A stretch of 64,000 nt of DNA, taken from positions 1 to 64,000 of the forward strand of contig CAIYSR010000125.1 of NCBI GenBank assembly GCA_903928895.1, read 5' to 3'. Shown here piece by piece: positions 15,272-48,521 of the stretch; within the stretch, counting starts at the first letter, position 1; the number at the start of each line of letters is the position of its first letter. The position numbers and the translations under genes are program-made. The notes under the pieces are model-generated. The model saw only the letters and a list, made by a program, of their open reading frames with translations, had not been told where the DNA came from and made no database searches. Source of the DNA: an uncultured Rhodospirillales bacterium. GTDB taxonomy: Bacteria > Pseudomonadota > Alphaproteobacteria > Acetobacterales > Acetobacteraceae.

Positions 15272-15293
15272 GCCGGAAACTCCTCGGTCTGGC

Positions 15294-16424
15294 CTAGCTG
15301 ATCCGCTTCACGCCGAATTCGAGGCTCGGGACGTTGGCGACCACCCAGGCCGCGTTCGATCGCCCGGGATCACCGCCATAGATGGTCTGCCCGTAGGCAT
15401 AGCCGGCGCCATCGACATTGAACGCGGTGCCGACCGTGGTGGTGCTGTTGTCCAGCACCACCGGCGCCACGGTGTCGCTGCCCGCCACGGCCGTGCCGGC
15501 AATGCCGACGGCGATGGCGTTGATCGCCGTCGGCGTCGACAGCCAGGTGCCGGACCAGGCATAGGTGTCGATGAGATTGATGCTGGCCGCGGCGACATAG
15601 CTGGTGTCGCCATCCATCGCCGCCTCATTGACGCGGGCATAGTTGCTGCCGCTGTCCGGGGTCCACCCGGTGTTTGATCCGGCGCCAGACGGGAAGTAGG
15701 TCTGGACATGGTGATTGCCGATCTGCGTGTCGCCGACATAGAGGTCGTCGAAATATGCGAGGTCGGTGCCGGCGCTCCAGCTGATGTTCGAGTAGCCGGA
15801 ATTGTTCAGCTCGACGCCCATCACGCAGGCGTCGAACGTGGTGTTGCCGGTGCGCTTGGTGTTCTGGCTGGACAGGTTGATATTCGGCGTCGCCCCGGCG
15901 GTCGCATTGATCCACACCTTGAACACGCCGGACGTGCCGTCGATCGTCAGCTCCATTTCGATCATGTTCAGCGTGTTCGGGTTCACCGTGGTTGCAGCGG
16001 TGCCGAGCAAGGTGCAGCTGTTGGGATCGCCGCGGTAGGCCGACACGGTGCCGGCGGTGTCGATCTTGACGAAGCACTGCATCGTCCCGCCATCCGTCAC
16101 CCCGAAATAGACCGAGGCCAGGTTGTTCTGCGGCTGGTTGCACGCCATCGCCACGCCGAGGCGGCGTGTGGTGTATTTCGTGCCGATCGACCTCACGGCG
16201 TGCACAAACATCTGGGCGAAGACGGCGTAGCCATGGCCGTTGGTGTTGGTCGCCCGCAGCGCGAAGCTCTTGCCGCTGCCGCGGTTGGGCGAGGACTTTG
16301 GCGTCGGGAACACCGCGTCGGCGAAGCCCCAGGGGGAGGTGCTGCTGCTGAGCACGCCGGCCATCAGGTCGGCATTGGCGTTCACCTCGTCGAAGCCTTC
16401 GAGGACATCGAATGTTGCGACCAT
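15294..16424 (-). CDS. Tail structural protein, LamG/concanavalin-like
   Basis: 376 residues, beta-rich. The segment from FADAVFPTPK through RLGVAMACNQ, MIEMELTIDGTSGVFKVWIN and DLAYFDDLYV is a jelly-roll pattern common in phage tail and fibre proteins. The C-terminal 130 residues (YFPSGAGSNTGWTPDSGSN to FGVKRIS) occur at the ends of many phage tail proteins. Its ATG overlaps the preceding stop as TGATG, showing translational coupling in the tail operon. Probable host-contact or decoration role; no enzyme motif. Confidence 0.7.
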   Translation of the reverse strand: MVATFDVLEGFDEVNANADLMAGVLSSSTSPWGFADAVFPTPKSSPNRGSGKSFALRATNTNGHGYAVFAQMFVHAVRSIGTKYTTRRLGVAMACNQPQNNLASVYFGVTDGGTMQCFVKIDTAGTVSAYRGDPNSCTLLGTAATTVNPNTLNMIEMELTIDGTSGVFKVWINATAGATPNINLSSQNTKRTGNTTFDACVMGVELNNSGYSNISWSAGTDLAYFDDLYVGDTQIGNHHVQTYFPSGAGSNTGWTPDSGSNYARVNEAAMDGDTSYVAAASINLIDTYAWSGTWLSTPTAINAIAVGIAGTAVAGSDTVAPVVLDNSTTTVGTAFNVDGAGYAYGQTIYGGDPGRSNAAWVVANVPSLEFGVKRIS

Positions 16425-18181: not shown

Positions 18182-21100
18182 CAGGCGATCTCCACGAGGT
18201 CTTCGCGGCCGAAGCCGCGGCCGACGATGCTGCTGAGCTGGTAGACGCGCAGTGACAGGGCTGCCGGTCGCGTGCCGAAATCGGCGGTGATTTGCGCCGC
18301 GGTGTAGACGGCCGCCGGCGAGGTCAGCCCGGTCAGCGTGCGCTTCACGGTACCGCCGGGCGCGGCGAGGATGTCGACCTCGTAGGCTTCGACCTGCTCG
18401 TTCAGAGGCACCGTGCCGGTGCCTGCGAGCAGATCGCCGCCGAGACGGGTGCGGCGCAGCCAGGCCAGGTGGACATCCGAGCCGCCGAGCGTGGCCGTCA
18501 CATGCACCGGCGCATAGGGCATCTTGTCCCGGCCGGTGATGGTGGCGCTCTCCGATTGCGCGTTCTCCGGCAGCTGGTTGATCGACACGCCGCGCCAGAC
18601 CAGCGGCACGTTGCGGCTGGCGATGGGAAGCTGGATCGGCAGCACGGTGGCGCTGCTGAGCAGGATGAAGGCATCGCCCGCCCGCAACTCGCCCGCCATG
18701 GTGTCGGTGCCGCGGCGCCCGCGGTTGAGCCAGGACAGCCGGTACTGTCCGTTGCCGAGCACGGTGACGTCGCGGAACTGGAGGATCTCGACCTCGCCGT
18801 TCGCCTTCAGCACGACCATGGCGTTGAAGCCGTTGGCCAGGCTGTCGTCGCTGATCGACGCCAGCGTGCCGCCACCGACGGACATCACGACATCCATCGT
18901 CCCCACGGTCTGGGTGTGGAAGCAGCTTGCCGGATCGGCCGGTGGGACGACGATGTGGCCCCAGTCCATCTCGGCGAGGCTGGTGTCGACCACCGACCAC
19001 ACCTGCCCGTCCGGCGATTTATCGAGCTCGCAGCCGGACCAGCCGATATCGGAGAAAGGGCCCGCCGCCCAATAGACGCGCAGGGCCAGGGAATTCTCGT
19101 CGGTGTCGCGCAGCAGGGGCGTGTCGAGCAGGAAGTACGCGCTGGGCACGACGCGCTTGACGGTCTGGCTGTCGAACCCATCGCCCACCGCGCCGGTGGC
19201 GGACGAGGTATAGGTGCCGTAGCTCTCGGCCTCGATGGTGGTGTCGAGCGCATAGTCGGCGCCGATATCGCCATTGGTCATCCGGCCCTGGATGACGTCG
19301 CCGCTGGCAAGTTGGAGGGCGATGCTGTCGCCGGCGTCGAGGTAGGCGTATTTGCTCGGCAGCCGGAGCTGGAAGCTGCGCCGGTTGAGCCATGCGGTGA
19401 ATAGGAGTTTCTCTACCTGCTGCTTGGCCTGGCTCTGGTCCATCACCGCGGTCAGTTGCAGGTCGGTCTGGTTGTCCGAGAACATCGTCGGATCGGGGCG
19501 CCGCGGCCGCGTCGCGCTCTGCACGTTGGTCTGGTAGTCCTTGGCCAAGTCCATCGTGGTCAGGGTGACCCGGTAGGGCAGGTCGACCTCCTGCTTGCGC
19601 ACCTCCTTGTAGGGCTCGGCATCCCCGGCGTTGAGGCGGATGAGATCGTCCTGCGGGATGGTGGCCTTGATGCCCTTGCCGCGGTTCTCGAAATACAGCC
19701 GGTCGTCGCGCTCGACGCAGTTGAGCAGGAAGGTCTGCGCCAGGCTCTGGGCGATCTGTGACGCCGCAGCCTTCTGGCTGACGACGAAGCCGAGCAGGCT
19801 CTGGGTCGCATCCGACGTATCGATGGCGGTCGAGGCGAGCCCGGAGCGGAGGCACAGATCGGTGAGGATGCTGCCCAGGGTCACGCCGTTGCCGGTGGGC
19901 CGGTTGACGAACAGCTTGGCCCAGCCGAGGCCACCGGTGTGGGCAATCATCTGGCGCGCATCGCCGTTGGCGACATAACCACCGTTGAGGAAGAAGGTGG
20001 TGCGGCTCCCCTCGGGCCAGGCGCTGTCGTAGATGATGGCGCCAGTGACGGCGTCGAGTTGCACTAGCTCCACGCCGCTCATCATCTGGAAGATGGTGCC
20101 GCCGATCAGCGAGCCCGACGTGCCGCCGCCAAACGGGACACGGGTCTTCCACAGGATGGTGCCATTCGACCACTTCACCGCCCACCACTGGTACGAGCCG
20201 GTGGCAGGCACGATCCAGGCGGTGAAAATCAGGGAGTCGTCGCTGTCGTCATAGACCGGCGTCGTCAGCGCCCCGAAGAACCCGGTGGCACCGGCCAGGA
20301 TATCGGCGGCGTGGATCGTGGCCCGGGTGGTGATGCTGAGGCGCACGGCCTCGGAGACCATGTCACCGCCCTGGTTGTAGGTGTCGGTGACCCGGATGCG
20401 GGCGATGTAGATCGGATCATGCTCGGCATAGATGTTGCCGGCGATGGTCCAGGCATCGCCGTAGGAGTAGCTCACCTGCCCGCGGCAGATGCCGTAGGTG
20501 TAATTGCCGTCCGGCGTGCCGCTGCCGGGGTCGCTCACCGGCGACAGGTCGCCAGCGTTGAGGACCGCGACCTCGTTGAACAGCCCGCCATTGACGACGA
20601 AGTAGTGGTTGCCGAAGTCGGTATCGACCTCGATGTAGGCCAGCTTCGATGGGATGGCCCACATGTGCATGTAGGCGGACGCAACGGCGCGATGCGTCTC
20701 GGCCAACGTCGGTCCGTCGATACGCGAGATGGCGCCGAAGCTGGCCGCGAACAGCGTGCCGTCCGGGATCGCCATCAGCGCGGTGAACGCCAGGTCGGTG
20801 TTGTCGAGCGTGAGCGCGGTGCTCACCGCCTGGCGGTCCTGCACCATGGTGTTGAGGTTGGCGCGCAGCAGGCCGTGCGGCGTGTTGCCGGCGAGGTAGA
20901 GGAAGGCGCGCGCGGCGTCGATCGCCACCGGGCCACCGTCGACGCCACCGAAACCGAATCCGGTCGGGAACGTCGTCAGTTGCTGATAGGTGTGGGTATC
21001 GTCCGAGGTCACCGCGACCTCGACGGTGATCGACGGCAGACGGTTGCCGTAGTCGGCGAGCGGGATGTCGTTGAACACCAGGTAGCAGGTGCCGCGGAAC

Positions 21101-21642
21101 GCCGGCACCTGGCCGACGCCCTTGTCCGCCTCGATCAGGCTGTCCGGCAACTGGCTCTCATCGCCGGGGTAGAAGCGGAAGTTGAGACCTGGGCTCTGCA
21201 CCGCCTCGGTGGTGGCACTGACGTCGTAGAGCAGCTTGCCGTCGCCCCAGATGCGCAGGACGTCCATCACCGGCCCCTCGCAGAGCGCGAGGGCGAAGGT
21301 GCCGTAGTAGGAATAGGTGATGGTGGTCTGGCTGACCGAGCCGCCCATTCCCTTGCCGGACTGCTGGGTCTTGCTGGTCTTCTGCTCGCGGATCGGCAGC
21401 GCCCAGATGATGTTGCCGTTCACCCGGGCGGTGCCGTAGACGATGTTGCGCACCGCGCCGTAGGAACTGGCGGAGACCACGAGGTCATTGAGCCGCGGCC
21501 CCTCGCCGGTCTGATGCACGACCTTGGGGTCGACGACACTGCCGAGCGAGTAGCCGAGCGAGAAGCCGGCGATCGCGCCTTGCGGGCCGCCGAGATAGGC
21601 GCCGATGACGCCACCGACGACGCCGAGGGCGATCTGGGCCAT
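18181..21642 (-). CDS. Tail tip hub / host-specificity protein (gpJ- and GTA gp15-like)
   Basis: 1153 residues, the largest baseplate protein. The N-terminus GVVGGVIGAYLGGPQGAIAG is a Gly-rich membrane-like stretch seen in these hubs; VYGTARVNGNIIW and FRGTCYLVFNDIPLADYGNR match the phage-tail_3/TIM-barrel hub family. The central region holds a beta-propeller-like insert; the C-terminal third (SLALRVYWAA, GRRGTDTMAGELRAGDAFIL) is fibronectin-like. It follows NlpC/P60, DUF2163 and DUF2460 genes in the same order as the RcGTA tail tip. GGAGG lies 6 bases before the ATG. The Xre/RES cargo separates it from the NlpC/P60 gene. Confidence 0.85.
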   Translation of the reverse strand: MAQIALGVVGGVIGAYLGGPQGAIAGFSLGYSLGSVVDPKVVHQTGEGPRLNDLVVSASSYGAVRNIVYGTARVNGNIIWALPIREQKTSKTQQSGKGMGGSVSQTTITYSYYGTFALALCEGPVMDVLRIWGDGKLLYDVSATTEAVQSPGLNFRFYPGDESQLPDSLIEADKGVGQVPAFRGTCYLVFNDIPLADYGNRLPSITVEVAVTSDDTHTYQQLTTFPTGFGFGGVDGGPVAIDAARAFLYLAGNTPHGLLRANLNTMVQDRQAVSTALTLDNTDLAFTALMAIPDGTLFAASFGAISRIDGPTLAETHRAVASAYMHMWAIPSKLAYIEVDTDFGNHYFVVNGGLFNEVAVLNAGDLSPVSDPGSGTPDGNYTYGICRGQVSYSYGDAWTIAGNIYAEHDPIYIARIRVTDTYNQGGDMVSEAVRLSITTRATIHAADILAGATGFFGALTTPVYDDSDDSLIFTAWIVPATGSYQWWAVKWSNGTILWKTRVPFGGGTSGSLIGGTIFQMMSGVELVQLDAVTGAIIYDSAWPEGSRTTFFLNGGYVANGDARQMIAHTGGLGWAKLFVNRPTGNGVTLGSILTDLCLRSGLASTAIDTSDATQSLLGFVVSQKAAASQIAQSLAQTFLLNCVERDDRLYFENRGKGIKATIPQDDLIRLNAGDAEPYKEVRKQEVDLPYRVTLTTMDLAKDYQTNVQSATRPRRPDPTMFSDNQTDLQLTAVMDQSQAKQQVEKLLFTAWLNRRSFQLRLPSKYAYLDAGDSIALQLASGDVIQGRMTNGDIGADYALDTTIEAESYGTYTSSATGAVGDGFDSQTVKRVVPSAYFLLDTPLLRDTDENSLALRVYWAAGPFSDIGWSGCELDKSPDGQVWSVVDTSLAEMDWGHIVVPPADPASCFHTQTVGTMDVVMSVGGGTLASISDDSLANGFNAMVVLKANGEVEILQFRDVTVLGNGQYRLSWLNRGRRGTDTMAGELRAGDAFILLSSATVLPIQLPIASRNVPLVWRGVSINQLPENAQSESATITGRDKMPYAPVHVTATLGGSDVHLAWLRRTRLGGDLLAGTGTVPLNEQVEAYEVDILAAPGGTVKRTLTGLTSPAAVYTAAQITADFGTRPAALSLRVYQLSSIVGRGFGREDLVEIA

Positions 21643-28880: not shown

Positions 28881-29453
28881 CTAACGGCCAGGGCGCTTGG
28901 CCGCACGCCGAGCGGCGATCTGGTTTGCGCCGCTCACCCTGAGGCGGTACGTGAGCATGGAACTGCTCACTCCAAAGGTCTTCGCAGCGGTCGACTGACT
29001 ACCTGAGTTTACGATGTAACGCGCAGCTTCATTGGGAATGAGCAAGCAACCGCCCAGGAATGCGGCCTCCTCCTCCACCGACCCGTCCCGGTCCCGCGTG
29101 CCATCTGCCGAGAGCAGCAGTGTTATGGGATGCCCGAGAAAGAGATGGGCCAGTTCATGAAAGAGGTTGCTTCGTTGGCGGACTGGAGCATGGGAATCGT
29201 TGTGTACGATTGCTGTGCTCATTCCCAAGGGCACGACGAGCCCAGAGAATGACTCCCGGTCGACGTGCAGGAAGTGGTGCCCGACGGCGCCGCCATTTTC
29301 ATCGACCAAGCCGCTCAGCTTGAGTACCACTACATCATAGTGGCGACAAACAACCCACGGGTCCAAGGGTGCCGTCGGAGCTAGACCGAGGACACCTCTA
29401 ATTTCGACTGCGATGCTGTTCGCCTTGGTCTTAAACCCATGTCGAAGGGCCAT
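28881..29453 (-). CDS. capP: ImmA/IrrE-type metallopeptidase, CapP-like
   Basis: 190 residues. Zinc site HELAH at 99-103 (HEXXH) and a third ligand in EEEAAFLGGCLLIP (E128-E129), the complete M78 pattern. A small helix-turn-helix-like C-terminus follows (STAAKTFGVSSSMLTYRLRV). It starts 6 bases after the stop of the XRE gene. In known CBASS loci the CapP metallopeptidase cleaves the CapH repressor after DNA damage and so releases CBASS expression. Position next to an XRE gene divergent from a CBASS operon fits that role. A prophage-induction role like ImmA of ICEBs1 is the alternative. Confidence 0.75.
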   Translation of the reverse strand: MALRHGFKTKANSIAVEIRGVLGLAPTAPLDPWVVCRHYDVVVLKLSGLVDENGGAVGHHFLHVDRESFSGLVVPLGMSTAIVHNDSHAPVRQRSNLFHELAHLFLGHPITLLLSADGTRDRDGSVEEEAAFLGGCLLIPNEAARYIVNSGSQSTAAKTFGVSSSMLTYRLRVSGANQIAARRAAKRPGR

Positions 29454-29459
29454 TCTGTC

Positions 29460-29804
29460 TCACAAAGTACGAAGGCTCTCATATGTCGCCCGCAAGACGC
29501 CCTCCAAGGCCAATTTTCCGGCCTCGCTGAGCTTCGGATCGGCGCGCAGCAAGGCGGTCATCTCCGCCAGGGTCTCAGCACGATTGCCCTCTTCGGCCGC
29601 GATGAAGCTCTCGGCTTTAAGTCCCGACCATCTCAGCAGTGCAGCGAGGCCGTCCACGTCAGGCCTCTTCCCCTGCATCATCCTGGTGAGCGTCGAGGCG
29701 CCGACACCGCTATCCTCGGCTACCTGTTTCCAGGTCTGACGACGGGCTAGTCGATGGGCGTTCAGCGCGGCGCAAAAGGCGTCGTTCTGAAAAATCTGTT
29801 TCAT
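29460..29804 (-). CDS. capH: XRE-family repressor, CapH-like
   Basis: 114 residues from the ATG at 29804 (GGGAGAGG upstream). Helix-turn-helix at about residues 23-60 (TWKQVAEDSGVGASTLTRMM); the C-terminal helices (AETLAEMTALLRADPKLSEA) likely dimerise and contain the cleavage region. It is the presumed target of the peptidase encoded just downstream. It is divergent from the CBASS operon across a 165-base region with a perfect dyad, the expected place for a repressor that controls both directions. Upstream in-frame starts would overlap its own promoter. Confidence 0.75.
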   Translation of the reverse strand: MKQIFQNDAFCAALNAHRLARRQTWKQVAEDSGVGASTLTRMMQGKRPDVDGLAALLRWSGLKAESFIAAEEGNRAETLAEMTALLRADPKLSEAGKLALEGVLRATYESLRTL

Positions 29805-29824
29805 GGGCCTCTCCCGGCTGCCGG

Positions 29825-29852
29825 AGTCTAGCATGTGATTCGACACTTGCAA
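29825..29852 (-). promoter_or_regulatory. Candidate promoter of the XRE-peptidase pair
   Basis: On the minus strand TTGCAA (29852-29847) and TAGACT (29830-29825) are spaced by 16 bases, a reasonable sigma-70 promoter, with the XRE ATG about 20 bases downstream. Confidence 0.5.
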
Positions 29853-29969: not shown

Positions 29970-31235
29970 ATGAACGATCTCTCGCGCTTCGTCGGGCTGC
30001 CAAGTCGGGTCGATCCCCTTGCCGACCCACTGGACGCGTTGCTCGCTGACATAGCGATCGGCGTTCAACTTCCACCTGGACTCCATGCAAAAATGGGACG
30101 TCGCTACGCCGCCATCCATACCTTCGCGGGCCGACCGGGCAGCCCGCTCGAGGGCACCATCGTTCAGTTCTATACCCAGGGCTCGATGGCCATCGACGCC
30201 ACCAACTCCACCCGGGGAACAGATAACGAGTTCGATCTTGACGCTATTCTGGAGGCGCTATGGCCGCCGGGAACGACGCCGGCTGGCGCCCTCCAGCTGC
30301 TCTGGCTTGCTCTGAAGGACTATCCCTGCCTGAAGGTCATTCGCCAGTCGCGGTGCGTGACCATCCAATACGCAGATGGCATGCACGTTGACGTGACACC
30401 GTCTCGGCGTATACCGGGAACGACTGATTTCGAGAGCGTGATTTTTCACGCGAAGCCGGGAACCCCGGTTTCGGAGCACGCCGAAATCCCGATGAACGCC
30501 TTCGCTTTTGCCAGATGGTACAACCACCGCACGCCCGACGAGGAGTGGTTCGCCGCCGCCTTTCGCCAACGCATGGCCGAGGACATGCAGTTGTTGGTCA
30601 AGGCGGATTCGATCGTCCACGACGTGCCCGAGCAAACGCCTCTCCCAAGGAAGAGCGTGACGACCGTCGCGCTCCAGCTCATCAAGCGCTTCCGGGACAT
30701 CTGGAGCCTGGACAAGCCAGGCCGCTACCCACCGTCGGTGATACTGTCCTGCCATGCCGGGCACGCTGCGAAACCTGGGTTGTCGTTGTCGGAAATGGTT
30801 ATCAGGCAGGCCCTGTGGACCGCGCGGGCGATCGACGATGCGGCGGCCGCGGGGCGCCTGGTGGACGTGCGAAACCCTGAGATGCGGAACGACAGGTTCA
30901 CGGACCGTTGGCCCGAGAACCACGCGCAGCAGAGGGGCTTCTCGGGTGCTTTGCATACATTCGCTGACGGATTGGAGTTGATCCGCCGCGGCGAGGTGGA
31001 ACTGGAGGATGCGCAGGAGTGGTTGCGGAAGTGCTTCGGACCGCAGGTGGTTTCGCGCTCGATCCAGATGATGAATGAGCGCAACGGGCGCACCCTCGCC
31101 GTACGCGGGCATGGCTACGGACGGACCGGTGGGCTCTACGTACCCGCAGCCCCCGCGATCATTGCTTCGGGCGCGTCGCTTGTGTCGAACGTCCCCGCGC
31201 GCGCCCACACCAACATGGGCGACAGGCGGCTATGA
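29970..31235 (+). CDS. CBASS CD-NTase (cGAS/DncV-like nucleotidyltransferase)
   Basis: 421 residues, GGAGGT 11 bases before the ATG. The nucleotidyltransferase signature is GS (71-72) followed by the metal-binding DNEFDLD (D89, D91), with the third acid D141 in MHVDVTPS. On phage infection it should make a cyclic oligonucleotide from NTPs in the cytoplasm. The helical C-terminal half (SVTTVALQLIKRF, FTDRWPENHAQQRG) is typical of bacterial cGAS-like enzymes. The flexible last 40 residues end in GDRRL. Product cannot be told, but pairing with a patatin effector suits cGAMP-type signals. Its stop overlaps the next gene (ATGA). Confidence 0.9.
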   Translation: MNDLSRFVGLPSRVDPLADPLDALLADIAIGVQLPPGLHAKMGRRYAAIHTFAGRPGSPLEGTIVQFYTQGSMAIDATNSTRGTDNEFDLDAILEALWPPGTTPAGALQLLWLALKDYPCLKVIRQSRCVTIQYADGMHVDVTPSRRIPGTTDFESVIFHAKPGTPVSEHAEIPMNAFAFARWYNHRTPDEEWFAAAFRQRMAEDMQLLVKADSIVHDVPEQTPLPRKSVTTVALQLIKRFRDIWSLDKPGRYPPSVILSCHAGHAAKPGLSLSEMVIRQALWTARAIDDAAAAGRLVDVRNPEMRNDRFTDRWPENHAQQRGFSGALHTFADGLELIRRGEVELEDAQEWLRKCFGPQVVSRSIQMMNERNGRTLAVRGHGYGRTGGLYVPAAPAIIASGASLVSNVPARAHTNMGDRRL

Positions 31236-31708
31236 TTGGGCTGATGAACATCGAGCAACAGATCAACTCGATGGCGGCTGCTTGGCCCAGCCTCAGGCTG
31301 GTCCACCGCGCCGGTTCGCTCGCCGCATGGCAGGGGCCATTGCAGGCGTTGTTCCGAAAATTCACTGTTAGGATCATCTACCGGGCGCCGCTTGCAATCG
31401 AGCTTCTGCATCCACGGCGCACCCAGCCCAGGGTCCGTGTCGTCGATCCACCATTGCGGCCGAGGCGCAATGATCCGGAAGGTCAGCTACCCCACGTTTA
31501 CTACGTCGGTGACGGACCATTGGATGTCGTACTGTGCATTTTCGACCCCGGGACGGGCGAGTGGTCGCCTGAGATGCCGCTCGCAGAAACCACCGTGCCT
31601 TGGACGATCGACTGGCTGGCGTCCTACGAGGGATGGCGGGCAACCGGGAAGTGGACCGGCGGCGGCCGGCATGTTGAAAGCCCAATGCTGAGCGAGGCCA
31701 TCGGATGA
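31232..31708 (+). CDS. CBASS E2-like protein (short type II Cap2)
   Basis: 158 residues with an E2 ubiquitin-conjugating-like pattern: PHVYYVGDG (H88) then the catalytic cysteine C102 in DVVLCIFDP, then LAETTVPWTIDWLASYEGWR and TGKWTGGGRH. In short type II CBASS such a stand-alone E2 modifies the CD-NTase by linking its C-terminus, without the E1 and JAB domains of long type II. Neither E1 nor JAB peptidase genes are present here. Overlaps both neighbours by ATGA, so its amount is tied to theirs. Confidence 0.82.
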   Translation: MIGLMNIEQQINSMAAAWPSLRLVHRAGSLAAWQGPLQALFRKFTVRIIYRAPLAIELLHPRRTQPRVRVVDPPLRPRRNDPEGQLPHVYYVGDGPLDVVLCIFDPGTGEWSPEMPLAETTVPWTIDWLASYEGWRATGKWTGGGRHVESPMLSEAIG

Positions 31709-32742
31709 ACTACATACCACCCAAGCGGTCCGACGGCACTCTCCAGCACCGGCGCAAACCGCTGCCGTGGCCGAAAGACCGTCCGTTCAAGATTCTCTCC
31801 ATCGACGGCGGTGGGATATGCGGCATCCTACCCGCATCAGTCCTCGCCGAGTTCGAGACACGGTTCCTCGGCAATCGGTCTATCGCTGGCCACTTCGACA
31901 TGATCGCAGGCACCTCGACTGGCGGCATCATCGCGCTGGGGCTTGCACACGGCCTTACCGCACGAGCCATCAAGACTTTCTACGTCGAGCGGGGACCCTT
32001 GATCTTCCCGGAGACGAACGCTTTCGGTCGTTTCCTGCGGCGGTTCCACCGCTATCGGCGCTACGTCTATGATAGCCGGGTGCTGGAAGAGGAGTTGCTG
32101 CGGATATTCGGCGACACCCCGCTCGGGGACGCGACGACACGCCTGTGCGTCCCGAGCTTCGAGGGAACACATGGGGAGCCGTGGATCTATAAGACGCCCC
32201 ACCATCCGGACTACAAGAAGGACGGCGTCGAACGGATGGTAAAGGTCGGCCTCGCGACCTCAGCAGCTCCGACATATTTCAAGGCTATGCCTAACAACGG
32301 CTATATCATGGTGGACGGTGGCCTGTGGGCAAACAACCCCATCATGAATGCCGTAACCGACGCGCTGACGTGCTTCGACATCGACCGGACCCAGGTATTA
32401 GTGTTGAGCCTCGGGTGCGGAGAAACATCGTTCAAGGTGGATCCTGCGCGGGCTGGCGGCGGCAAGTTTCAGTGGAGAGACGTGATCCAGGCAGCTATGC
32501 GAGCGCAGTCTCTCAATGCCCTCGGGCAGAGCTACCTGTTGCTGGGGAAGGAAAACGTCGTCCGGTTGGATGCCCCGGAGACGCCTACTCCGATCCCTCT
32601 CGACAATCACAGACGCGCCGTAATCGAATTGCCAGCTATGGCTCGCGCGCTTGCAGAGGGCGCGGGACACCGTGTCGAGAGCCTATTCCTCGAAGAAATT
32701 GTCGAACCCTACCATCCGTGCATACCCGCAAGGGCGTCATAA
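31705..32742 (+). CDS. capV: CBASS effector, patatin-like phospholipase (CapV-like)
   Basis: 345 residues. Patatin features are complete: oxyanion DGGGICGI (34-41), nucleophile S71 in GTSTGG, and catalytic D204 in DGGLWANNP. In CBASS the enzyme is switched on by the cyclic nucleotide and degrades inner-membrane phospholipids, killing the cell before phage release. Start overlaps the E2 stop (ATGA). There is no signal peptide or membrane segment, so it attacks the membrane from the cytoplasm. A clear terminator was not seen after it. Confidence 0.9.
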   Translation: MNYIPPKRSDGTLQHRRKPLPWPKDRPFKILSIDGGGICGILPASVLAEFETRFLGNRSIAGHFDMIAGTSTGGIIALGLAHGLTARAIKTFYVERGPLIFPETNAFGRFLRRFHRYRRYVYDSRVLEEELLRIFGDTPLGDATTRLCVPSFEGTHGEPWIYKTPHHPDYKKDGVERMVKVGLATSAAPTYFKAMPNNGYIMVDGGLWANNPIMNAVTDALTCFDIDRTQVLVLSLGCGETSFKVDPARAGGGKFQWRDVIQAAMRAQSLNALGQSYLLLGKENVVRLDAPETPTPIPLDNHRRAVIELPAMARALAEGAGHRVESLFLEEIVEPYHPCIPARAS

Positions 32743-38876: not shown

Positions 38877-39878
38877 ATGAATGATCGTCCTATCGACAAG
38901 GTGAGAAATTCAGGCGGAATGATGACTCTGCCCGAGGATGTGGGCGGCATTTCCGACATGTGTGAGATCACCGGGACTCTGCACATGATTGGGAGAAAGG
39001 CCATCTACCGGGTCCAGCTTGCGGATCAAATCGACCCGCAGCGCACGAACATCGGAATACCCAACACGCACCAGAAGGTGCTCTCTATCGGGACGGACGC
39101 CGTAATTGTCCGGCAGGTTCTGATGACCGCCCGGCGACTATTCAACAATAACGTTCTAGGGTCGAACTTCGATTACAAAGGCGCCGTAAATCTATCCTTC
39201 GACGCTCTTCAGGACTTGGCGGCTATGTTCCTCATGCATGAGGAACTGGGCAAGAAACTCGACGCCATATCGGAAGACATGAAAAATGCAGCCGTCCACC
39301 AACGATCCTTCACGGTGCCCACCGTGGGCGGCGTGCGCGCTTCTGTTGAGTCGTTTCTTCAGAAAGCAGACCATGCAGCCCGGGACCTCTTCGCCATCGT
39401 CAAACTGTTCTATGGCGACGTGCTCGGCAAGGGCATGTTCCAAGCGCTTCACAAGCTGATTCAGCAAAAATTCGGTGAGGACGATCCATTCACCAAGTTC
39501 TTGGCTCAGGTCCTGCCTTTCTTGCAGTTTGTTCGAAACGCCCGAAACGCAATGGAGCATCCCGACGTGACCAAGAGCGTCAAGGTCACGGACATCCTTC
39601 TTTTGCGAAGCGGCGAACTTCAGCTCCCCTGTATCGAGGTCATTCACCCCGAAACGGCGCAGCCGTCTGTGCATCTTCTCGATCTCATGGGCCATGTCGC
39701 CAACCACCTCGCCATCATCTTCGAGGCGATGATGGCCTACCTCTGCGGCTGCAACGTCCAGCCGATCGCCGGATTGCCATTGGGGGTCATCGAATATACC
39801 GAGGACCAGCAGAAGGCCTTCAAATGCCGCTACGGCTACGGCACGCGCATTGGCGATCAGATCGTACCGTTCGGGTAA
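38877..39878 (+). CDS. Cargo protein of unknown function with HEPN-like Rx4H motif
   Basis: 333 residues, largely helical, no named family recognised. Residues 210-230 read AQVLPFLQFVRNARNAMEHP, containing R223-N-A-M-E-H228, the Rx4H arrangement of HEPN ribonucleases, inside a helix with the usual 'RN..H' look. The N-terminal part (ITGTLHMIGRKAIYRVQLAD) is beta-rich; a C-terminal helix has MGHVANHLAIIFEAMMAYLC. Rightward, alone, between leftward capsid and connector genes, so it is lysogeny-expressed cargo. A defence or toxin role is inferred from motif and place only. Confidence 0.65.
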   Translation: MNDRPIDKVRNSGGMMTLPEDVGGISDMCEITGTLHMIGRKAIYRVQLADQIDPQRTNIGIPNTHQKVLSIGTDAVIVRQVLMTARRLFNNNVLGSNFDYKGAVNLSFDALQDLAAMFLMHEELGKKLDAISEDMKNAAVHQRSFTVPTVGGVRASVESFLQKADHAARDLFAIVKLFYGDVLGKGMFQALHKLIQQKFGEDDPFTKFLAQVLPFLQFVRNARNAMEHPDVTKSVKVTDILLLRSGELQLPCIEVIHPETAQPSVHLLDLMGHVANHLAIIFEAMMAYLCGCNVQPIAGLPLGVIEYTEDQQKAFKCRYGYGTRIGDQIVPFG

Positions 39879-41031: not shown

Positions 41032-42486
41032 TTAGCGCGCATCCAGGGTCACGAAGCAGCTCCGGGTCAGCGACCCGTGCTGCGGCTGGATCGACGAACC
41101 CCAGGCCGGCTGGCCGTTCAGGCGGAAGGTGAAGCGGAACGCCTGCAAGCCCTGGTCGAAGTAGAGGTGCATCGACACGTCGGTGCGGATGTCCTGTCCG
41201 CGCGTGACCGCCCAATAGCTGGTGAGGTCGGCGAGGATGATGTCGCCCTGCGCGCCGATGGTGGAGCACGCCTCGATCGGCACCACCGGACGGCCCATCA
41301 GCGTCGCATAGGGTTCGACCGACAGCCCGTTGGCCGGCAGGTAGGCCGGGACCTTCGAGGTGGCGGTGGGGTCGAACGCCATGCCGTTGAGCTGCGGCTC
41401 GGTGTCCTGGTTGATCAGCCAAATGGCGGTGCGGCGGCAGGGCGCATACATGCGGGCCCACATCTTCTGGACGTTGGCGAACAGGATCGTGGCCGCTGCC
41501 TGCGAGGTCTCCTTGGCAACCGAGATCGTCGGCCCGCCGGTCGCCGCGGTGAGAATGCCGAGCGGCTGCCCGACGCCGGTACCGGAGATGATCGCCGTGT
41601 TGATCTTGGCCGCCATCTTCGCCGGCGCCTTCGCGCGCAGCCAGCTCTCCAGGCCAGGCGCGTCCTCCAGCAGTTCATCGGAGATTGGCACCAGGGCCAT
41701 CAGCTTGGCGAGGCGGATGGACATCATCGAGAGTTGCGGCTTGCTGGCGGTGACCGATGCGGCTTCGGCCTCCCAGTAGACCTGGACGCCGCCGGAGGTC
41801 TGCCAGGGCGTGGTCTCGTCCTTGGGGATGACGATGTTGTTGGAGGCGGTCACCAGCTGGGCGCAGCGGCCGAGCAGGTTTTCCTCGCCCATCACCTTGA
41901 CCCAGATCTCGCGGCGGAAGTCTGGCGGGATGGCGAAGCCGCCATCGGTGCCCGCGCCTTCGCCGCCGAAGGTGGACGCGGCGTTCTGCAGCCGGTTGTC
42001 CGGCTGGCCGGTGCGGGTGGCGGAGAGCACGCTCATCGAGAAGTCGCCGAACGACTTGAAGCCGCCCTTGCCGGCGTCCGCGGACCGCGGCGCGGCCGGG
42101 ATGGTGCGGTTGCCGCCGGCATCGCGCGGCTCGGCGGCGGTCTGGCGGCGTGTGCCAGGGGCGGCCAGCGGCAGCGCCGCGGCCTCGCGGGCGCTGATCT
42201 GCCGGGCAAGCCGATCAGTCTCGGCCTTATTGCCCTCGATCTGCTCGACTTCCTCGTCGGACAGGTCGCGATTGGCTTCGTCGGCAGCCTGGATCAGCTG
42301 CTGGGAGGCGTCGGCCAGTTCCTGCTGGCGGGTGCGCAGGGCCTCAATATTGGGCGCGGCGGCAAACACGACACCGGGCGCGAGGGTGACAAGGGCGGCG
42401 CTGCTGGCCGAAGCGAGCAGCGCCACGCCCGACGACGAAGGCGTCGCGGGGGTCATGCGAGCGACATGCATGTTGGCAGGCTCCAT
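41032..42486 (-). CDS. Major capsid protein, HK97 family
   Basis: 484 residues. Residues about 45-110 are a coiled delta/scaffold domain (IEALRTRQQELADASQQLIQ). The HK97 core begins after the linker rich in Ala/Gly/Arg: DGGFAIPPDFRREIWVKVMG, then IVIPKDETTPWQTSGGVQVY, LMALVPISDELLEDAPGLES and IISGTGVGQPLGIL. The delta domain is removed by the neighbouring protease. The exact start is uncertain, since no strong ribosome site precedes the first ATG; the one at residue 6 is an alternative. Confidence 0.9.
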   Translation of the reverse strand: MEPANMHVARMTPATPSSSGVALLASASSAALVTLAPGVVFAAAPNIEALRTRQQELADASQQLIQAADEANRDLSDEEVEQIEGNKAETDRLARQISAREAAALPLAAPGTRRQTAAEPRDAGGNRTIPAAPRSADAGKGGFKSFGDFSMSVLSATRTGQPDNRLQNAASTFGGEGAGTDGGFAIPPDFRREIWVKVMGEENLLGRCAQLVTASNNIVIPKDETTPWQTSGGVQVYWEAEAASVTASKPQLSMMSIRLAKLMALVPISDELLEDAPGLESWLRAKAPAKMAAKINTAIISGTGVGQPLGILTAATGGPTISVAKETSQAAATILFANVQKMWARMYAPCRRTAIWLINQDTEPQLNGMAFDPTATSKVPAYLPANGLSVEPYATLMGRPVVPIEACSTIGAQGDIILADLTSYWAVTRGQDIRTDVSMHLYFDQGLQAFRFTFRLNGQPAWGSSIQPQHGSLTRSCFVTLDAR

Positions 42487-42595: not shown

Positions 42596-43687
42596 CTATC
42601 GGATCAGCGCGTGCATCTCGGCGACGCGTGCCATCGCCGCGGCCCGGTTCGGGCGCAGCGCGGCCGGGAGGCGGCGGAACTTCGTGGGGTCGCGGACCGA
42701 CGCCGCCACGGCCATATTCGGGACCATCTTGTCGGCGAAGCCGTTGGCGACGGCCTCCTTGCCGGACATCCAGGTTTCGTCGGCCATCATCTGCTTCACG
42801 GTGGCCGGTTGCGTCTTGGTGCGCGCGGCATAGACGCCGACCAGCGTGCCATCGACCGCATCGAGCAGGTCCGCCGACTTGCGCATGTCGGCCGCGTTGC
42901 CGAATGCGACCGACCAGGCGTTGTGGATCATCATGAACGCGCTCTCAGAAATCTCGATCACGTCGCCGGCCATGGCGATGAAGCTGGCCGCCGATGCGGC
43001 GAGCCCGTCGACGTGCATGGTCACCTTGGCCGGGTGCTGCTGCAGCAGCGTGTAGATCGTCTTGCCGTCGAAGACGTCGCCGCCCTCGCTGTTGATGCGC
43101 ACGTCGATCGTCTTGACCGGGCCGAGTGCCTTCAGGTCCTTCTGGAACTGGGCGGCGGTGATCTCGGTGCCATCCGAGAAGAATCCACCGCCGCCGATCT
43201 GGCCGTAGAGATAAATCTCGGCACTGTCGCCGGCGGCGCCGCGAACCACGCGGTAGCCACTCGCCTGCGCTGTGGCACGGCGGCGCGCAAACGGCACGAT
43301 GGTCGACCGGCTCGCCGGCTTCTCTTCGGGATCGGCGGGGTTGTCGCCTTCCTTCGTTTCGATCAGGTCGAGCAGGCGGCCGGCCTCGTCGAAAATCGCG
43401 GTCGCGCCCTGCTGCGAGGCACGGCTGCGGATCGAGCGGAGCGCAGCACCGTAGACCTTGCCATCCTTGCCGAACGGGTATTTCCAACGTGCCTTCGTCT
43501 TCTGCGCGGCGCTGGTATCCTCTCCAAGATACATGTCCGAGTATGCGCCCCAGTTGTCTCCGCTCGGGCCGAGCAGCTTGTCGCCATCCTCGACCGAGAA
43601 CGACCAGGCAGCCTCGTCGTCGTAGTTGCCGGCATTGATCAGCGAGCGCGCATGGCTTGCGCCTGTCGAGTTCAGTGTGACTGCCAT
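42596..43687 (-). CDS. Prohead protease, ClpP-like (S14), with N-terminal extension
   Basis: 363 residues. The ClpP-like domain occupies about 155-345: IYLYGQIGGGGFF, INSEGGDVFDGKTIYTLLQQ, nucleophile S232 in GLAASAAS, H255 in MMIHNAW, and the DETWMSGKEAVANGFAD segment with the third residue. The 125-residue N-terminal extension (WSFSVEDGDKLLGPSGDNWG; WKYPFGKDGKVYGAALRSIR) is a separate domain seen in some phage proteases. Trims the capsid delta domain and scaffold. AAGGAT precedes the ATG. Confidence 0.88.
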   Translation of the reverse strand: MAVTLNSTGASHARSLINAGNYDDEAAWSFSVEDGDKLLGPSGDNWGAYSDMYLGEDTSAAQKTKARWKYPFGKDGKVYGAALRSIRSRASQQGATAIFDEAGRLLDLIETKEGDNPADPEEKPASRSTIVPFARRRATAQASGYRVVRGAAGDSAEIYLYGQIGGGGFFSDGTEITAAQFQKDLKALGPVKTIDVRINSEGGDVFDGKTIYTLLQQHPAKVTMHVDGLAASAASFIAMAGDVIEISESAFMMIHNAWSVAFGNAADMRKSADLLDAVDGTLVGVYAARTKTQPATVKQMMADETWMSGKEAVANGFADKMVPNMAVAASVRDPTKFRRLPAALRPNRAAAMARVAEMHALIR

Positions 43688-43706: not shown

Positions 43707-45329
43707 TCAGTCGAGAATGAGCAGGCGCACCGGCTCGCCGTCGATCACCAGCTCGCGGACCGCAATGCGATCGAGTGTGCGGGCGGTCAGGCCGGCGCTG
43801 GTGAGCGCGCCGAGGGCGATGGATGCGCCGGGCTCGCCGCGTTCGCCTGGCAGTCCATCCACGCCGTCACGGCCGGGTGCGCCGTCCCGTCCGTTGATGC
43901 CGTCGGCACCGCGCCCGCCATCCTTGCCGTCGGCGCCGCTGATCCCGGGTTTGCCGTCTTTCCCATCGACGCCATCGTGTCCGGGGGGGCCGGCAATTCC
44001 GTCGGCGCCAGGCGGGCCGACTACTGATCCGAACTCGGCCTCGACGCCGTCGCTGTAGACGCCGCGCAAAACACCGTCGGCGACCCACGCGCGGGCGATC
44101 CAGCGGCCATCCTTGCCATCGCGTCCGTCATGGCCAGCATCGCCGCGCTGGCCCGGCAGGCCGTCGATGCCATTGCGTCCAGGCAATCCTGGTGCGCCAT
44201 CCGTGCCGTCGCGGCCAGGCGGCCCGGCTTCTCCCTGCTGCCCGTCCTTGCCGTCGACGCCGTCCCGACCCGGCAGCCCAGGCGTACCGTCGATGCCATC
44301 GCGGCCAGCGGAGCCGGCTTCTCCCTGCTGCCCGTCCTTGCCATCGATGCCGTCGCGGCCCGGCTGTCCAGGTGCGCCGTCGACACCGTCGCGGCCAGGC
44401 GGCCCAGCTTCGCCAGGCGGGCCATCCTTTCCGTCGGTGCCATCGCGACCTGGCGGCCCTGGCGCACCGTCGGCGCCGTCGCGGCCTGGGTGGCCAGCAT
44501 CTCCCGGCTGGCCGTCGATGCCATCACGGCCCGGTAGGCCAGGCACACCGTCAGCACCATCGCGGCCAGGCGCGCCGGCTTCACCCGGCTGTCCATCCTT
44601 CCCGTCTACGCCGTCGCGACCTGGCAGCCCTGGCACACCGTCGGCGCCGTCGCGGCCCGGCGGCCCCGCTTCTCCCGGGTGCCCATCCTTGCCATCGACG
44701 CCATCGCGGCCGGCCAGCCCTGGCACACCGTCGGCACCATCGCGGCCAGGCGGCCCAGCTTCACCCGGCTGGCCATCCTTTCCGTCAGCGCCGTCGCGAC
44801 CTGGCAGCCCAGGCGCACCGTCGGCGGCATCGCGGCCAGGTGCACCGGCTGCACCCGGCGACCCGTCCTTGCCGTCAGCGCCGTCGCGGCCGGCCAGCCC
44901 CGGTTCGCCATCGGCTCCATCGCGGCCCGGCGGTCCGGATTCTCCCGGCTGGCCATCCTTTCCGTCGATGCCATCGCGGCCTGGCGTTCCGTCGCGGCCT
45001 GGAGTGCCAGCAATGCCGATACCGTCTTTTCCGTCGACGCCGTCGCGCCCTGGGGCGCCGTCACGGCCTGGAAGCCCTGGTGCACCGTCAACGCCGCCGC
45101 GGCCCGGCTGCCCATCTTTGCCATCAACGCCGTCGCGCCCTGGAGCACCGTCGCGACCGGGGGCACCAACGTCGCCACTCGGGCCGGGCTGCCGCGCCAG
45201 CGCGTCGACCGCCCCCTGCATGCGGTCCAGCCGCCGCACGAGCCCGCGCAGCACCCGGTACAGGGACGCCCATGGTCCGCCGCCATCGTCGGGCGAGGCC
45301 AGGTTCAGGATGCGGGGTTCAAGCGACAA
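43707..45329 (-). CDS. Collagen-like G-X-Y repeat protein in the head module
   Basis: 540 residues from a TTG at 45329 that overlaps the portal stop, with GGAG 8 bases upstream. Residues 1-48 (LYRVLRGLVRRLDRMQGAVD) form a helix, probably the trimerising base. About 140 G-X-Y triplets follow, mostly GRDG(V/A/I)DG, GPPG and GEAG types, broken once by a 29-residue insert (WIARAWVADGVLRGVYSDG). The last 39 residues end in VRELVIDGEPVRLLILD. Such proteins fold as collagen triple helices. Placed between portal and protease, it may be a capsid fibre. Confidence 0.85.
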   Translation of the reverse strand: MSLEPRILNLASPDDGGGPWASLYRVLRGLVRRLDRMQGAVDALARQPGPSGDVGAPGRDGAPGRDGVDGKDGQPGRGGVDGAPGLPGRDGAPGRDGVDGKDGIGIAGTPGRDGTPGRDGIDGKDGQPGESGPPGRDGADGEPGLAGRDGADGKDGSPGAAGAPGRDAADGAPGLPGRDGADGKDGQPGEAGPPGRDGADGVPGLAGRDGVDGKDGHPGEAGPPGRDGADGVPGLPGRDGVDGKDGQPGEAGAPGRDGADGVPGLPGRDGIDGQPGDAGHPGRDGADGAPGPPGRDGTDGKDGPPGEAGPPGRDGVDGAPGQPGRDGIDGKDGQQGEAGSAGRDGIDGTPGLPGRDGVDGKDGQQGEAGPPGRDGTDGAPGLPGRNGIDGLPGQRGDAGHDGRDGKDGRWIARAWVADGVLRGVYSDGVEAEFGSVVGPPGADGIAGPPGHDGVDGKDGKPGISGADGKDGGRGADGINGRDGAPGRDGVDGLPGERGEPGASIALGALTSAGLTARTLDRIAVRELVIDGEPVRLLILD

Positions 45330-46650
45330 GGTCGAACTCCATCTCGGCCAGCGCGGCGATCGCGGCCTGTGCCGCTTTCTCGGATGCCGGCGGCTCAGGC
45401 GGCTGTGGCTCGGTCGGCGCACTGCGGGCGGAAGGTGCCGCGGGCGGACCGTCGCCGGCCTTATCCAGCGTCACGTACTGGACCTGCATGAAGCGCTTGT
45501 CGCCGCCGTCGGCAGCCGGGATCAGGTTCTCGTCCTCGCGGCGCAGGATGTCGTTCGCCGAGTAGACCCCCATCTGGCGCATCTGCTGGTAGTAGGTGCC
45601 GCGGCTGGCACTGTCCCCGCGCATCAGCGCGTTCATGTTCATCTTGGTGTAGTAGCCAGGCCGGTTCGCGCCGAAGAGCTTGTAGTCGGCCTCGTCTTCG
45701 AACCGCTTGACCCAGGGCGCGATCGAGTCGACCACTACCTCGGTCACCTGCGATTCCGCATTGCTCTTGGACGAGCGATCGAGGCTGGCCACCTTGTGCG
45801 GCGGCACCCCGAACCATCGGCAGATCTCGGTGACCAGGAACTCATTGGTCGCCAGGAACTGCGCCTTCTCGGGCTCGATGCCGATCGGCGTGTACTTCAT
45901 CCCGGCGTCGGCGAAGAACACCCGCTCGCCGCGCACCCCGCGATACAGCTTGTTCAGCGCCGCCTTGACCCGCTTCATCGCCGGCTCGCTCAGCGGCTTG
46001 ACGGACTCGATCACCGCCGAGACGTTCATGCCGTTGCCGAAGAAGCCGGCGCCGAACAGCTGCGCCGCCCGCGCCCAGCCGATCGACTCCGATGCGTATT
46101 CGCAGACGTTGATCCCGACCGGGCCCTCGCCGAACCCTCGGATGTGGAACATATCCATCGGCTGAAGATCGACCGGCGCCAGCACGCCATTGTGGACGCG
46201 GTAGATCATCCCGCCGGTGTCGTCGCGCAGCACGTGCACCCGGCTCGGATGGATCGGCCACAGCGCGACCGGGCGTCCGAGCTGGTCGCGTTCGATCTCG
46301 GCGTAGCCGTTCCCCCAGCGCAGAGCCCAGTGCAGCAGGGATTCCCGAAACTGGAAGCTCGACCACTCCGGGTTTGGCCGCGTCGAGATCAGGGTGTCGA
46401 TCGGATGCGTGCCGGCGCGCTGGCCGCCGCTCTGGCCGGCCCGCATCGCGTTCCAGGGCAGCACGGCGACGGTCTGCGAGATGTAGCGAAGGCACGCCCA
46501 CACGGTCGGAACCGTGATGCAATTGTCCGCGGTGATGACGATGCCGGCCAGCGTGCGCGCGGCGACGGGTATGCGACGCTCGTCGGGGCGTTGCGGATCG
46601 GCGGTCTCGCGCGCGGCAAAGATTGAGGTGAGACGGGAGAAGGCCGACAT
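45319..46650 (-). CDS. Portal protein, HK97 family
   Basis: 443 residues from the ATG at 46650, chosen because it overlaps the large-terminase stop (TGATG). Portal features: VWACLRYISQTVAVLPWNAM, the FGNGMNVSAVIESVKPLSEP core, and YKLFGANRPGYYTKMNMNAL. It forms the dodecamer through which DNA enters. The Pro/Ala-rich tail (GDGPPAAPSARSAPTEPQPP) is not conserved. Confidence 0.92.
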   Translation of the reverse strand: MSAFSRLTSIFAARETADPQRPDERRIPVAARTLAGIVITADNCITVPTVWACLRYISQTVAVLPWNAMRAGQSGGQRAGTHPIDTLISTRPNPEWSSFQFRESLLHWALRWGNGYAEIERDQLGRPVALWPIHPSRVHVLRDDTGGMIYRVHNGVLAPVDLQPMDMFHIRGFGEGPVGINVCEYASESIGWARAAQLFGAGFFGNGMNVSAVIESVKPLSEPAMKRVKAALNKLYRGVRGERVFFADAGMKYTPIGIEPEKAQFLATNEFLVTEICRWFGVPPHKVASLDRSSKSNAESQVTEVVVDSIAPWVKRFEDEADYKLFGANRPGYYTKMNMNALMRGDSASRGTYYQQMRQMGVYSANDILRREDENLIPAADGGDKRFMQVQYVTLDKAGDGPPAAPSARSAPTEPQPPEPPASEKAAQAAIAALAEMEFDLVA

Positions 46651-48521
46651 CAGTACTCGTCCTCCTCGTCTGCCGACGCCAGGGCGTCCTCGTAGCGGCG
46701 CTTCAATTCCTCCCACCTGGGGTGCGAGGGATCGGCAAGTATCTGCTGGTCGATTGCGTCGTCCGGCGCTGGTTGGGCAGGGATCTGCTGCGATTCGGCA
46801 GCTGATTGCAGGCCCAGTTCCACCGCCTGCGCGTCCGTCATCGTCTCGTAGAACGAGGTGCCCATGGAATCCGGGTTGCGGCTCATCAGTGCGACGGCAT
46901 CAAGAGACGCCATCAGCGGGTCAATCTTGCCGGCGCCTGCTGCCTGCTTGGTGATGGTGACCGCGTTGCCTCTCGGTTCGACCCGCGCGTTGCTGACCGC
47001 CCACGCCATCAGCGCCTGGCCGCAGTGCACCAGCGTCCGGTTGGCCAGCTTGACCTCCGCGGTCTTGATCGCGCCGTTCAGCGTCCAGCCCTGGCTGACG
47101 CCGACCACCCTGTCCTTGCCCTCAATCCCGCGCTCGGCCAGCGCATCCACGATGGCGCCGACGCCCATGGGGTCGAGGCCGACCATCGCCAGCAGCCCGC
47201 TGGCGTCGACCGCGGCGACCACGTCGGCAAGCTCGCCAAACGCCAGGTCCATGTCGTCGACCAGGGAAAGCTCTCCGCTCGCCTCCAGGTCGCGCAGCCG
47301 CGGCGCTTCCGCCTTGCGCAGCTCGAGCACCGAGCGATGCGCCCAGGCACGGTTCCACAGCAGCCACCGGCGGGTGCCGATCTCGCGGCCCAGCACCGCC
47401 AGGCCCAACAGATCGTCCAGGCCACCGCCGTCAACCCCGATGCAGATCACCTCACTGCGGGTCACCAGGGCATCGAACGTCAGCGCCGGTTCGGACGCTC
47501 CGGCCCAGTGGTCGACGCCGCGCCAGCGGTCCGAATGCAGCGCCAGGCCAATCTCGATGTTCAGATGCTGGCTGGCCCAGCGAGCGACCTCACCGACGCC
47601 GTCCGAGCGGGCGCCGGCGAAGTCTGACTTCAGCCGGTTGATCGTGATCGATCGATCGCGATTGGGCGTGACCATCCACCACAGCGAGGCATCATGCCAA
47701 GGCGGGGTCTCGCCCGGCTCCGGCACCCGCGCGATGTCCGGCGGGAACTCGTAGAGCACCGGCAGCATCGGCACGTCGGTCACCAGGCCGTCGCGCACGC
47801 CGCGCGCCTTGGCCAGTTCGGAGCGGAACACGCCGGCGGGCGGCCGCTCGCTCTGGGTGGTGATGAAGATGAGGAAGGCCTCGGGGTTCGGCAGCAGGCC
47901 GCCGCGCAGCTGGCCGATGACGCGGTCAGCGTTGTGATCCGAGGATATCTCGTGCAGCTCGTCGATCAGCACGCCGGCCGGCTTGACCCCGGTCACCACG
48001 CTGGTGTCGAAGGTCTTGATGATCAGCGACGCCCGGGTGCGGCGATCGGTGATCTTCTTCAGGTGCTCCTGCACATGCATCCGCTTGGCCAGGAACTGTT
48101 CCGGATCGGCCTCGATCATGCCGACCGCCTGGGAGAAGGCCAGGTCGGACACCATCTTGGTCGGGCCGATCAGCAGGAATTCGGCGCGCGGCCTGGCGTT
48201 CAACAGCAGCGCCGTCAGCATCAGCGCAGCACCGTTGGTCGTCTTGCTGGACTTCTTCGGCACCAGCAGGAACAGTTCGCGGATCATCCGCTCGCGGGTG
48301 GCTGCGTCGAACGAGCCGAACAGCACCCCGACGATCTCGCGGAACCACTCGCCGCCGGCCTCGGCCAGCGCCGGCTTCTCCTCCACATCAGGCAGCCGCA
48401 GCCGGTTCCAGATCGCGATCGCCCGCGCCGCCTCCGGCTTGGCCAGTGGCAGGTCCGGGATCAGCGAGCGCCCGGTGCGGATGCGCTCCTGCCAGTCCGG
48501 GCAGGCCAGCGACCATGCCAC
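46650..48521 (-). CDS. terL: Terminase large subunit
   Basis: 623 residues. ATPase domain with a variant Walker A VPKKSSKTT (87-95), Walker B VLIDELHE (184-191) and coupling TTQSER. The nuclease domain (ICIGVDGGGLDDLLGLAVLG; FGELADVVAAVDASG; VVGVSQGWTLNG) follows. Terminase_1/HK97-type large subunit that cuts and pumps the phage genome. Follows the small subunit by one base and is preceded by an HNH endonuclease, an arrangement typical of cos-packaging phages. Confidence 0.92.
   Translation of the reverse strand: MAWSLACPDWQERIRTGRSLIPDLPLAKPEAARAIAIWNRLRLPDVEEKPALAEAGGEWFREIVGVLFGSFDAATRERMIRELFLLVPKKSSKTTNGAALMLTALLLNARPRAEFLLIGPTKMVSDLAFSQAVGMIEADPEQFLAKRMHVQEHLKKITDRRTRASLIIKTFDTSVVTGVKPAGVLIDELHEISSDHNADRVIGQLRGGLLPNPEAFLIFITTQSERPPAGVFRSELAKARGVRDGLVTDVPMLPVLYEFPPDIARVPEPGETPPWHDASLWWMVTPNRDRSITINRLKSDFAGARSDGVGEVARWASQHLNIEIGLALHSDRWRGVDHWAGASEPALTFDALVTRSEVICIGVDGGGLDDLLGLAVLGREIGTRRWLLWNRAWAHRSVLELRKAEAPRLRDLEASGELSLVDDMDLAFGELADVVAAVDASGLLAMVGLDPMGVGAIVDALAERGIEGKDRVVGVSQGWTLNGAIKTAEVKLANRTLVHCGQALMAWAVSNARVEPRGNAVTITKQAAGAGKIDPLMASLDAVALMSRNPDSMGTSFYETMTDAQAVELGLQSAAESQQIPAQPAPDDAIDQQILADPSHPRWEELKRRYEDALASADEEDEY

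Follow-up and report, generated by a model that had tools for sequence, protein, structure and literature searches.

A collagen-like protein encoded directly behind a phage portal gene is a candidate portal-attached head rod

Phage collagen has been located in tail fibres (PMC3368898, PMC5155283) and is known only rarely on capsids. SPP1 gp12 is one such capsid protein, a 64-aa polypeptide with a short central collagen segment, encoded between the scaffold and capsid genes and bound to capsid hexamers (PMC6316719, PMC7602432). At the portal vertex, the crown of the HK97 portal is open to the inside of the capsid, where it contacts DNA (PMC10359639), and the C-terminus of the P22 portal forms an inward barrel (PMC4992974). 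In the open-access literature we found no description of a collagen or other rod linked to a portal. Here we describe a collagen-like gene in the head block of a prophage in the window, by which we mean the whole 64,000-nucleotide stretch of DNA analysed. On sequence comparisons we favour, with moderate confidence, the reading that it encodes a trimeric head rod protein attached to the portal. The features of the gene and its neighbours are as follows.

43707..45329, minus strand: collagen-like rod protein, 540 aa, with a TTG start at 45329 and a stop codon at 43709-43707 (ORF and translation; Pfam Collagen 4e-67; start position conserved in relatives)
45337..45340, minus strand: Shine-Dalgarno-like GGAG upstream of the TTG, within the portal reading frame (sequence)
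45186..45329, minus strand: N-terminal region, aa 1-48, a short hydrophobic peptide, linker and amphipathic helix (held-out HMM 9e-12; putative docking role)
44100..45185, minus strand: collagen-like shaft, aa 49-410, three G-X-Y runs of 19, 20 and 80 triplets (sequence)
44019..44099, minus strand: 27-aa non-collagen insert, aa 411-437, within GRWIARAWVADGVLRGVYSDGVEAEFGSVV, a module that recurs in relatives' shafts (sequence comparison)
43821..44018, minus strand: second collagen-like stretch, aa 438-503, 22 triplets (sequence)
43710..43820, minus strand: conserved C-terminal domain, aa 504-540, predicted short helix and beta-hairpin (held-out HMM 1e-20; AlphaFold2)
45319..46716, minus strand: portal protein of 465 aa, whose stop codon falls within the beginning of the rod gene (Pfam Phage_portal 2e-92)
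45322..45450, minus strand: C-terminal tail of the portal, a Pro/acid-rich linker and amphipathic helix (EKAAQAAIAALAEMEFDLVA), the proposed rod attachment site (sequence)
42596..43687, minus strand: ClpP-type prohead protease (Pfam CLP_protease 3e-29; phrog_94 head maturation protease 2e-76)
41032..42486, minus strand: HK97-type major capsid protein (Pfam Phage_capsid 1e-46)
46650..48521, minus strand: terminase large subunit (phrog_9 1e-93)

The 141 G-X-Y triplets of the rod protein fall into four runs (aa 49-105, 108-167, 171-410 and 438-503), the longest of which has 80 unbroken triplets, against a maximum of 9 in 2000 residue shuffles. GRD (26) and GKD (13) are the most frequent triplets, GRDG(V/A/I/T)DG occurs 20 times, and the match to Pfam Collagen (PF01391) scores 222 bits against a cut-off of 27, placing the protein in that family. 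If straight, the shaft would measure ~121 nm at 0.286 nm per residue, with a longest unbroken run of 69 nm. The DNA of the gene is a degenerate tandem repeat (90-bp period, 8.8 copies, 73% matches), a level of divergence that suggests old units rather than fresh duplication. A preliminary description of this DNA had reported a collagen-like ORF between portal and prohead protease genes, about 140 Gly-X-Y triplets, many GRDG(V/A/I)DG units and near-repeated DNA. All of this agrees with our counts; the ORF coordinates were exact, Pfam and PHROG searches confirmed the domains and both neighbours, and the terminase (TerL) and HK97-type capsid assignments hold too. Absent from that description were the 27-aa insert and the ~37-aa conserved C-terminal domain.

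Several other genes were recorded in the window. CBASS defence genes (oligonucleotide cyclase, E2-like protein and patatin-type phospholipase; 29970-32742, plus strand) lie in the tail block on the opposite strand, and an ImmA-like metallopeptidase with a weak capP match (28881-29852, minus strand) adjoins an HTH-type regulator and these CBASS genes. Within the structural block, a 333-aa ORF runs on the opposite strand (38877-39878, plus strand); it had no match in defence or NCBI family libraries. The tail protein at 18181-21642 (minus strand) carries at its C-terminus an Rcc01698-like domain of the kind seen in gene transfer agents.

Phage tail fibres often contain collagen-like regions, and the PHROG families matched by the rod protein are mostly named tail fibre, but these matches are confined to the low-complexity Gly-X-Y part. 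The tail block of the window, with fibre-like genes of its own, lies 22-30 kb away (13826-21642). Moreover, the gene keeps its head position in relatives rather than sitting in a tail block, and solved structures include no known tail-fibre relative of its C-terminal tip. That the gene encodes a tail fibre out of place is thus very improbable.

What is conserved in the rod protein is its N-terminus and ~40 C-terminal residues, while the shaft alone varies between collagen, an alpha-helical coil and a non-collagen repeat. The position of the gene is constant across these shaft types, as are the ends in the collagen and non-collagen-repeat forms. Profiles built from relatives without the window protein recover both of its ends (N-terminus 9e-12, C-terminus 1e-20). 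The N-terminal peptide reads PRILNLA in the window and 'P.I.NRA' in relatives, and we propose aa 1-48 as a docking and trimer-nucleating end. AlphaFold2 models the C-terminal domain as a short helix and beta-hairpin (mean pLDDT 89.8); searches of the PDB by sequence, profile and fold returned no significant relative, and a trimer cap is our proposal from the model. A foldon-type cap, as in T4 fibritin, was considered for the predicted hairpin and set aside on the same PDB fold and profile searches. In one portal subclade (L072, L076, L081, L202 and L213), the C-terminal end of the rod is a helix-turn-helix, above the Pfam cut-off in L202 and below it in the other four. This end is modelled as three helices (pLDDT ~83-90), with no significant match in a fold search.

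Wider portal scans returned at least ~110 distinct contigs and one MAG (L124), and the counts given here describe a sample. Members of the rod family are metagenomic except for L124, some isolate prophages such as those of L048, L052 and L074 from IMG isolate genomes, and the E. coli and EBPR cases described below. A single-sequence portal scan of reference genomes gave no match, and an alignment-based scan gave L124, a Hyphomicrobiales MAG. A scan with the C-terminal domain across viral contigs and 384 other genomes of the class found confident matches only in the window and in the viral contig L004. The L004 portal is 57% identical to that of the window, its gene order is terminase, portal, a 351-aa collagen-like protein, ClpP protease and capsid, and the two collagen proteins share 52% identity over their last 46 residues. 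The order portal, rod, ClpP protease and capsid is shared by the window, L004, L124 and dozens of viral contigs. A whole-protein homology search was set aside, as it yielded mostly low-complexity collagen matches in unrelated tail fibres.

The portal tree contains one clade of at least 47 portals, 40 of them readable past the portal gene. Among the matches listed, the rod gene is present in some shaft form in 38 of these 40 (30 collagen, 4 coiled-coil, 2 non-collagen repeat and 2 portal-collagen fusions), and L051 and L195 are the only readable members without it. It is absent throughout a six-member sister clade. One gain and two losses are therefore the simplest history, with no recent move, and the tree places the head-block position as ancestral to the whole clade, contrary to the earlier suggestion that the gene had moved. 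We found no cultured phage in the clade; the best listed cultured or named-phage portals, ~35-39% identical, fall outside it.

Shaft length differs widely among these relatives. Complete collagen genes have 39-141 triplets, corresponding to straight lengths of 33-121 nm (0.286 nm per residue), and a ~30-residue module, of which aa 411-437 is the window copy, interrupts several shafts. In the nearest relative, L045, 23 triplets precede the shared insert, compared with 119 in the window, and the L045 contig ends inside the module. The length variation that the preliminary description foresaw between isolates is real between relatives; our searches turned up no near-identical prophage.

The rod gene is closely tied to the portal gene. 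In nearly all relatives, including the coil and non-collagen variants, the rod gene starts at the portal stop or slightly ahead of it, mostly at -10 to 0 nt, and this equivalent placement supports the TTG start in the window (-10 nt). In L046, an exception, small ORFs separate the portal and rod genes. The overlap could reflect co-translation alone. In two diverged contigs (L076 and L079, portal DNA 79% identical), the collagen is in frame with the portal C-terminus, and no separate rod gene is left in L076, which is readable through to the protease. A GAGG lies ~11 nt before an internal ATG in both fusions, and this internal start could still release a free rod.

Fusion to a portal also occurs in better-known hosts. 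The non-collagen shaft of L063 matches the portal-annotated families phrog_1289 (4e-35) and phrog_2271 (6e-25), in the latter at positions 508-670 of 859, well past the portal core. In E. coli prophages the rod module is either encoded by a 407-aa gene of its own, which shares an ATGA with the portal stop (L236, L239), or forms the C-terminal part of a portal 832-861 aa long (L237, L240). The junction has a run of five G in the former pair and six in the latter, and slippage, programmed frameshifting or phase variation at this run could set which form is made. At least 80% of this portal-rod region is present in 1,239 of 5,426 complete E. coli genomes, where the rod form is often annotated as a frameshifted portal. 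RefSeq labels L238 and L239 as 'frameshifted', and in L238 the frame changes at a later point. In EBPR siphovirus 3, the portal-like gp4 (469 aa) is followed by an overlapping 613-aa rod, gp5. The E. coli module ties to the window protein solely through shafts of the L063/L059 type.

Across the clade and its sister, a helix in the portal tail was scored in all 37 gene-bearing portals and in none of the 9 without the gene (heuristic score, margin 1.37 vs 1.30). This correlation is the weakest of three portal-link findings, and a single deletion of adjacent DNA could account for the loss of the helix in L051 and L195. As a universal marker of the rod the helix was rejected, since more distant gene-less portals also have C-terminal helices.

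The rod gene adjoins the protease, in a place often taken by scaffolding genes, and overlaps the portal; its loss in L051 and L195 implies that it is dispensable. These points would suit an assembly factor, namely a chaperone, nucleator or scaffold that binds the portal and is either missing from the mature virion or cleaved by the adjacent prohead protease. The major capsid protein, however, has a charged, helix-prone N-terminal extension of ~100 aa that could itself be an HK97-type scaffold domain, and long, variable collagen shafts would be unusual in a transient factor. We regard this alternative as improbable.

Taken together, the portal-stop overlap, the natural fusions and the helix-turn-helix tips argue for a rod fixed to the portal, perhaps within the head. 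In the portal-attached rod we propose, translation would begin from a start overlapping the portal stop, about in step with the portal. By analogy with collagen biology, three chains would be brought into register by the N-terminal helix and the beta-hairpin domain at the other end, and their Gly-X-Y segments would zip into a triple helix. The N-terminal peptide and helix would then dock on the Pro/acid-rich, helix-ended tail of the portal, a link that is covalent in some relatives. The shaft would be a spacer, whether collagen, coiled coil or another repeat, and the whole a portal-anchored device that offers its tip to packaged DNA or, in assembly or ejection, to a different partner.

Known portal C-termini face the head interior, so a rod on the portal C-terminus would begin inside the head; with attachment at the crown, the rod probably starts on the inner, DNA-facing side, although its length conflicts with this. 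The helix-turn-helix tips would fit DNA contact and also suggest an internal position. Nonetheless, we estimate the head lumen for this genome size at ~55-60 nm, and a ~121-nm shaft with a 69-nm unbroken run argues against such a position. A collagen triple helix inside the head, anchored where the portal crown faces the DNA, with a shaft that can be exchanged for coiled coil or other repeats and, in some relatives, a helix-turn-helix tip touching the packaged genome, is a reading that we judge overall somewhat less likely than not. A separate portal lineage carries a collagen-like gene with different ends in the same slot (L122:5825-7081, L123:7388-8194 and L169:2702-3733). The proteins of other lineages in the rod slot (L122, L123, L169, E. 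coli and EBPR siphovirus 3) end in a domain that resembles carbohydrate-binding modules, a resemblance only. It rests on pattern in the first three, whose C-termini had no database match, and on a Pfam CBM_5_12 match below the cut-off (E 4e-4) in E. coli. These tips suggest an outside role.

A shaft longer than the lumen and such CBM-like tips would be expected of an external head fibre, a decoration at hexamer centres or vertices of the outer capsid that aids host adhesion in the manner of SPP1 gp12 or phi29 gp8.5 and is not at the portal, the overlap being a matter of operon architecture. The phage collagens described in the literature we found are external, among them SPP1 gp12, a non-essential, head-block-encoded collagen-like trimer on the capsid surface (PMC6316719, PMC7602432). 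The external head fibres of RcGTA are anchored through a short hydrophobic peptide at their N-terminus (PMC7296036), which resembles the short conserved N-terminal end of the rod, and the RcGTA portal is a distant relative of the window portal. Against an external fibre, the natural fusions place the shaft on the portal C-terminus, helix-turn-helix tips are hard to account for outside the head, and the C-terminal tip is conserved across lineages, without the diversity of a receptor binder. We judge an external fibre unlikely, if the most serious alternative to a rod at the portal. The capsid fibre or spike envisaged in the preliminary description stands as far as its class is concerned, a head-associated structural rod with gp12 as precedent; its placement as an outer-surface decoration fares less well, since overlap, portal fusions and helix-turn-helix tips favour the portal.

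If the portal-attached reading is correct, the portal vertex would gain a further component in a conserved family of portal-coupled rods, which one lineage encodes in a gene of its own overlapping the portal gene and another, including common E. coli prophages, carries as part of the portal. This would raise the question of what occupies the inner side of the gate through which DNA passes. With the E. coli form in about a fifth of complete genomes, that question is addressable in laboratory phages.

Among known systems, SPP1 gp12 resembles the rod in being a collagen-like product of a siphophage head block; gp12 is trimeric and non-essential, and the rod gene has been lost in two relatives. 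The rod differs in its 540 aa, its conserved end domains, its overlap with the portal gene, its place between portal and protease, and its fusion to the portal in relatives. We do not file it as a member of the gp12 family, though the two may act alike. The phi29 fibre gp8.5 and the RcGTA head fibre (Rcc01080) are likewise head-associated fibres with an N-terminal attachment end. However, gp8.5 is alpha-helical, the RcGTA fibre sits on vertices through base proteins encoded elsewhere, and neither is coupled or fused to a portal. In P22, an elongated element also stands at the portal C-terminus on the inner side, but it is the portal's own alpha-helical barrel, with separate ejection proteins and no collagen. 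The E. coli rod-extended portals (832-861 aa; phrog_2271, phrog_1289) share with the window and its relatives a rod module that follows the portal immediately or is joined to its C-terminus, and their shaft repeat matches the non-collagen variants L063 and L059; they differ in a shaft that is not collagen and a tip that is CBM-like.
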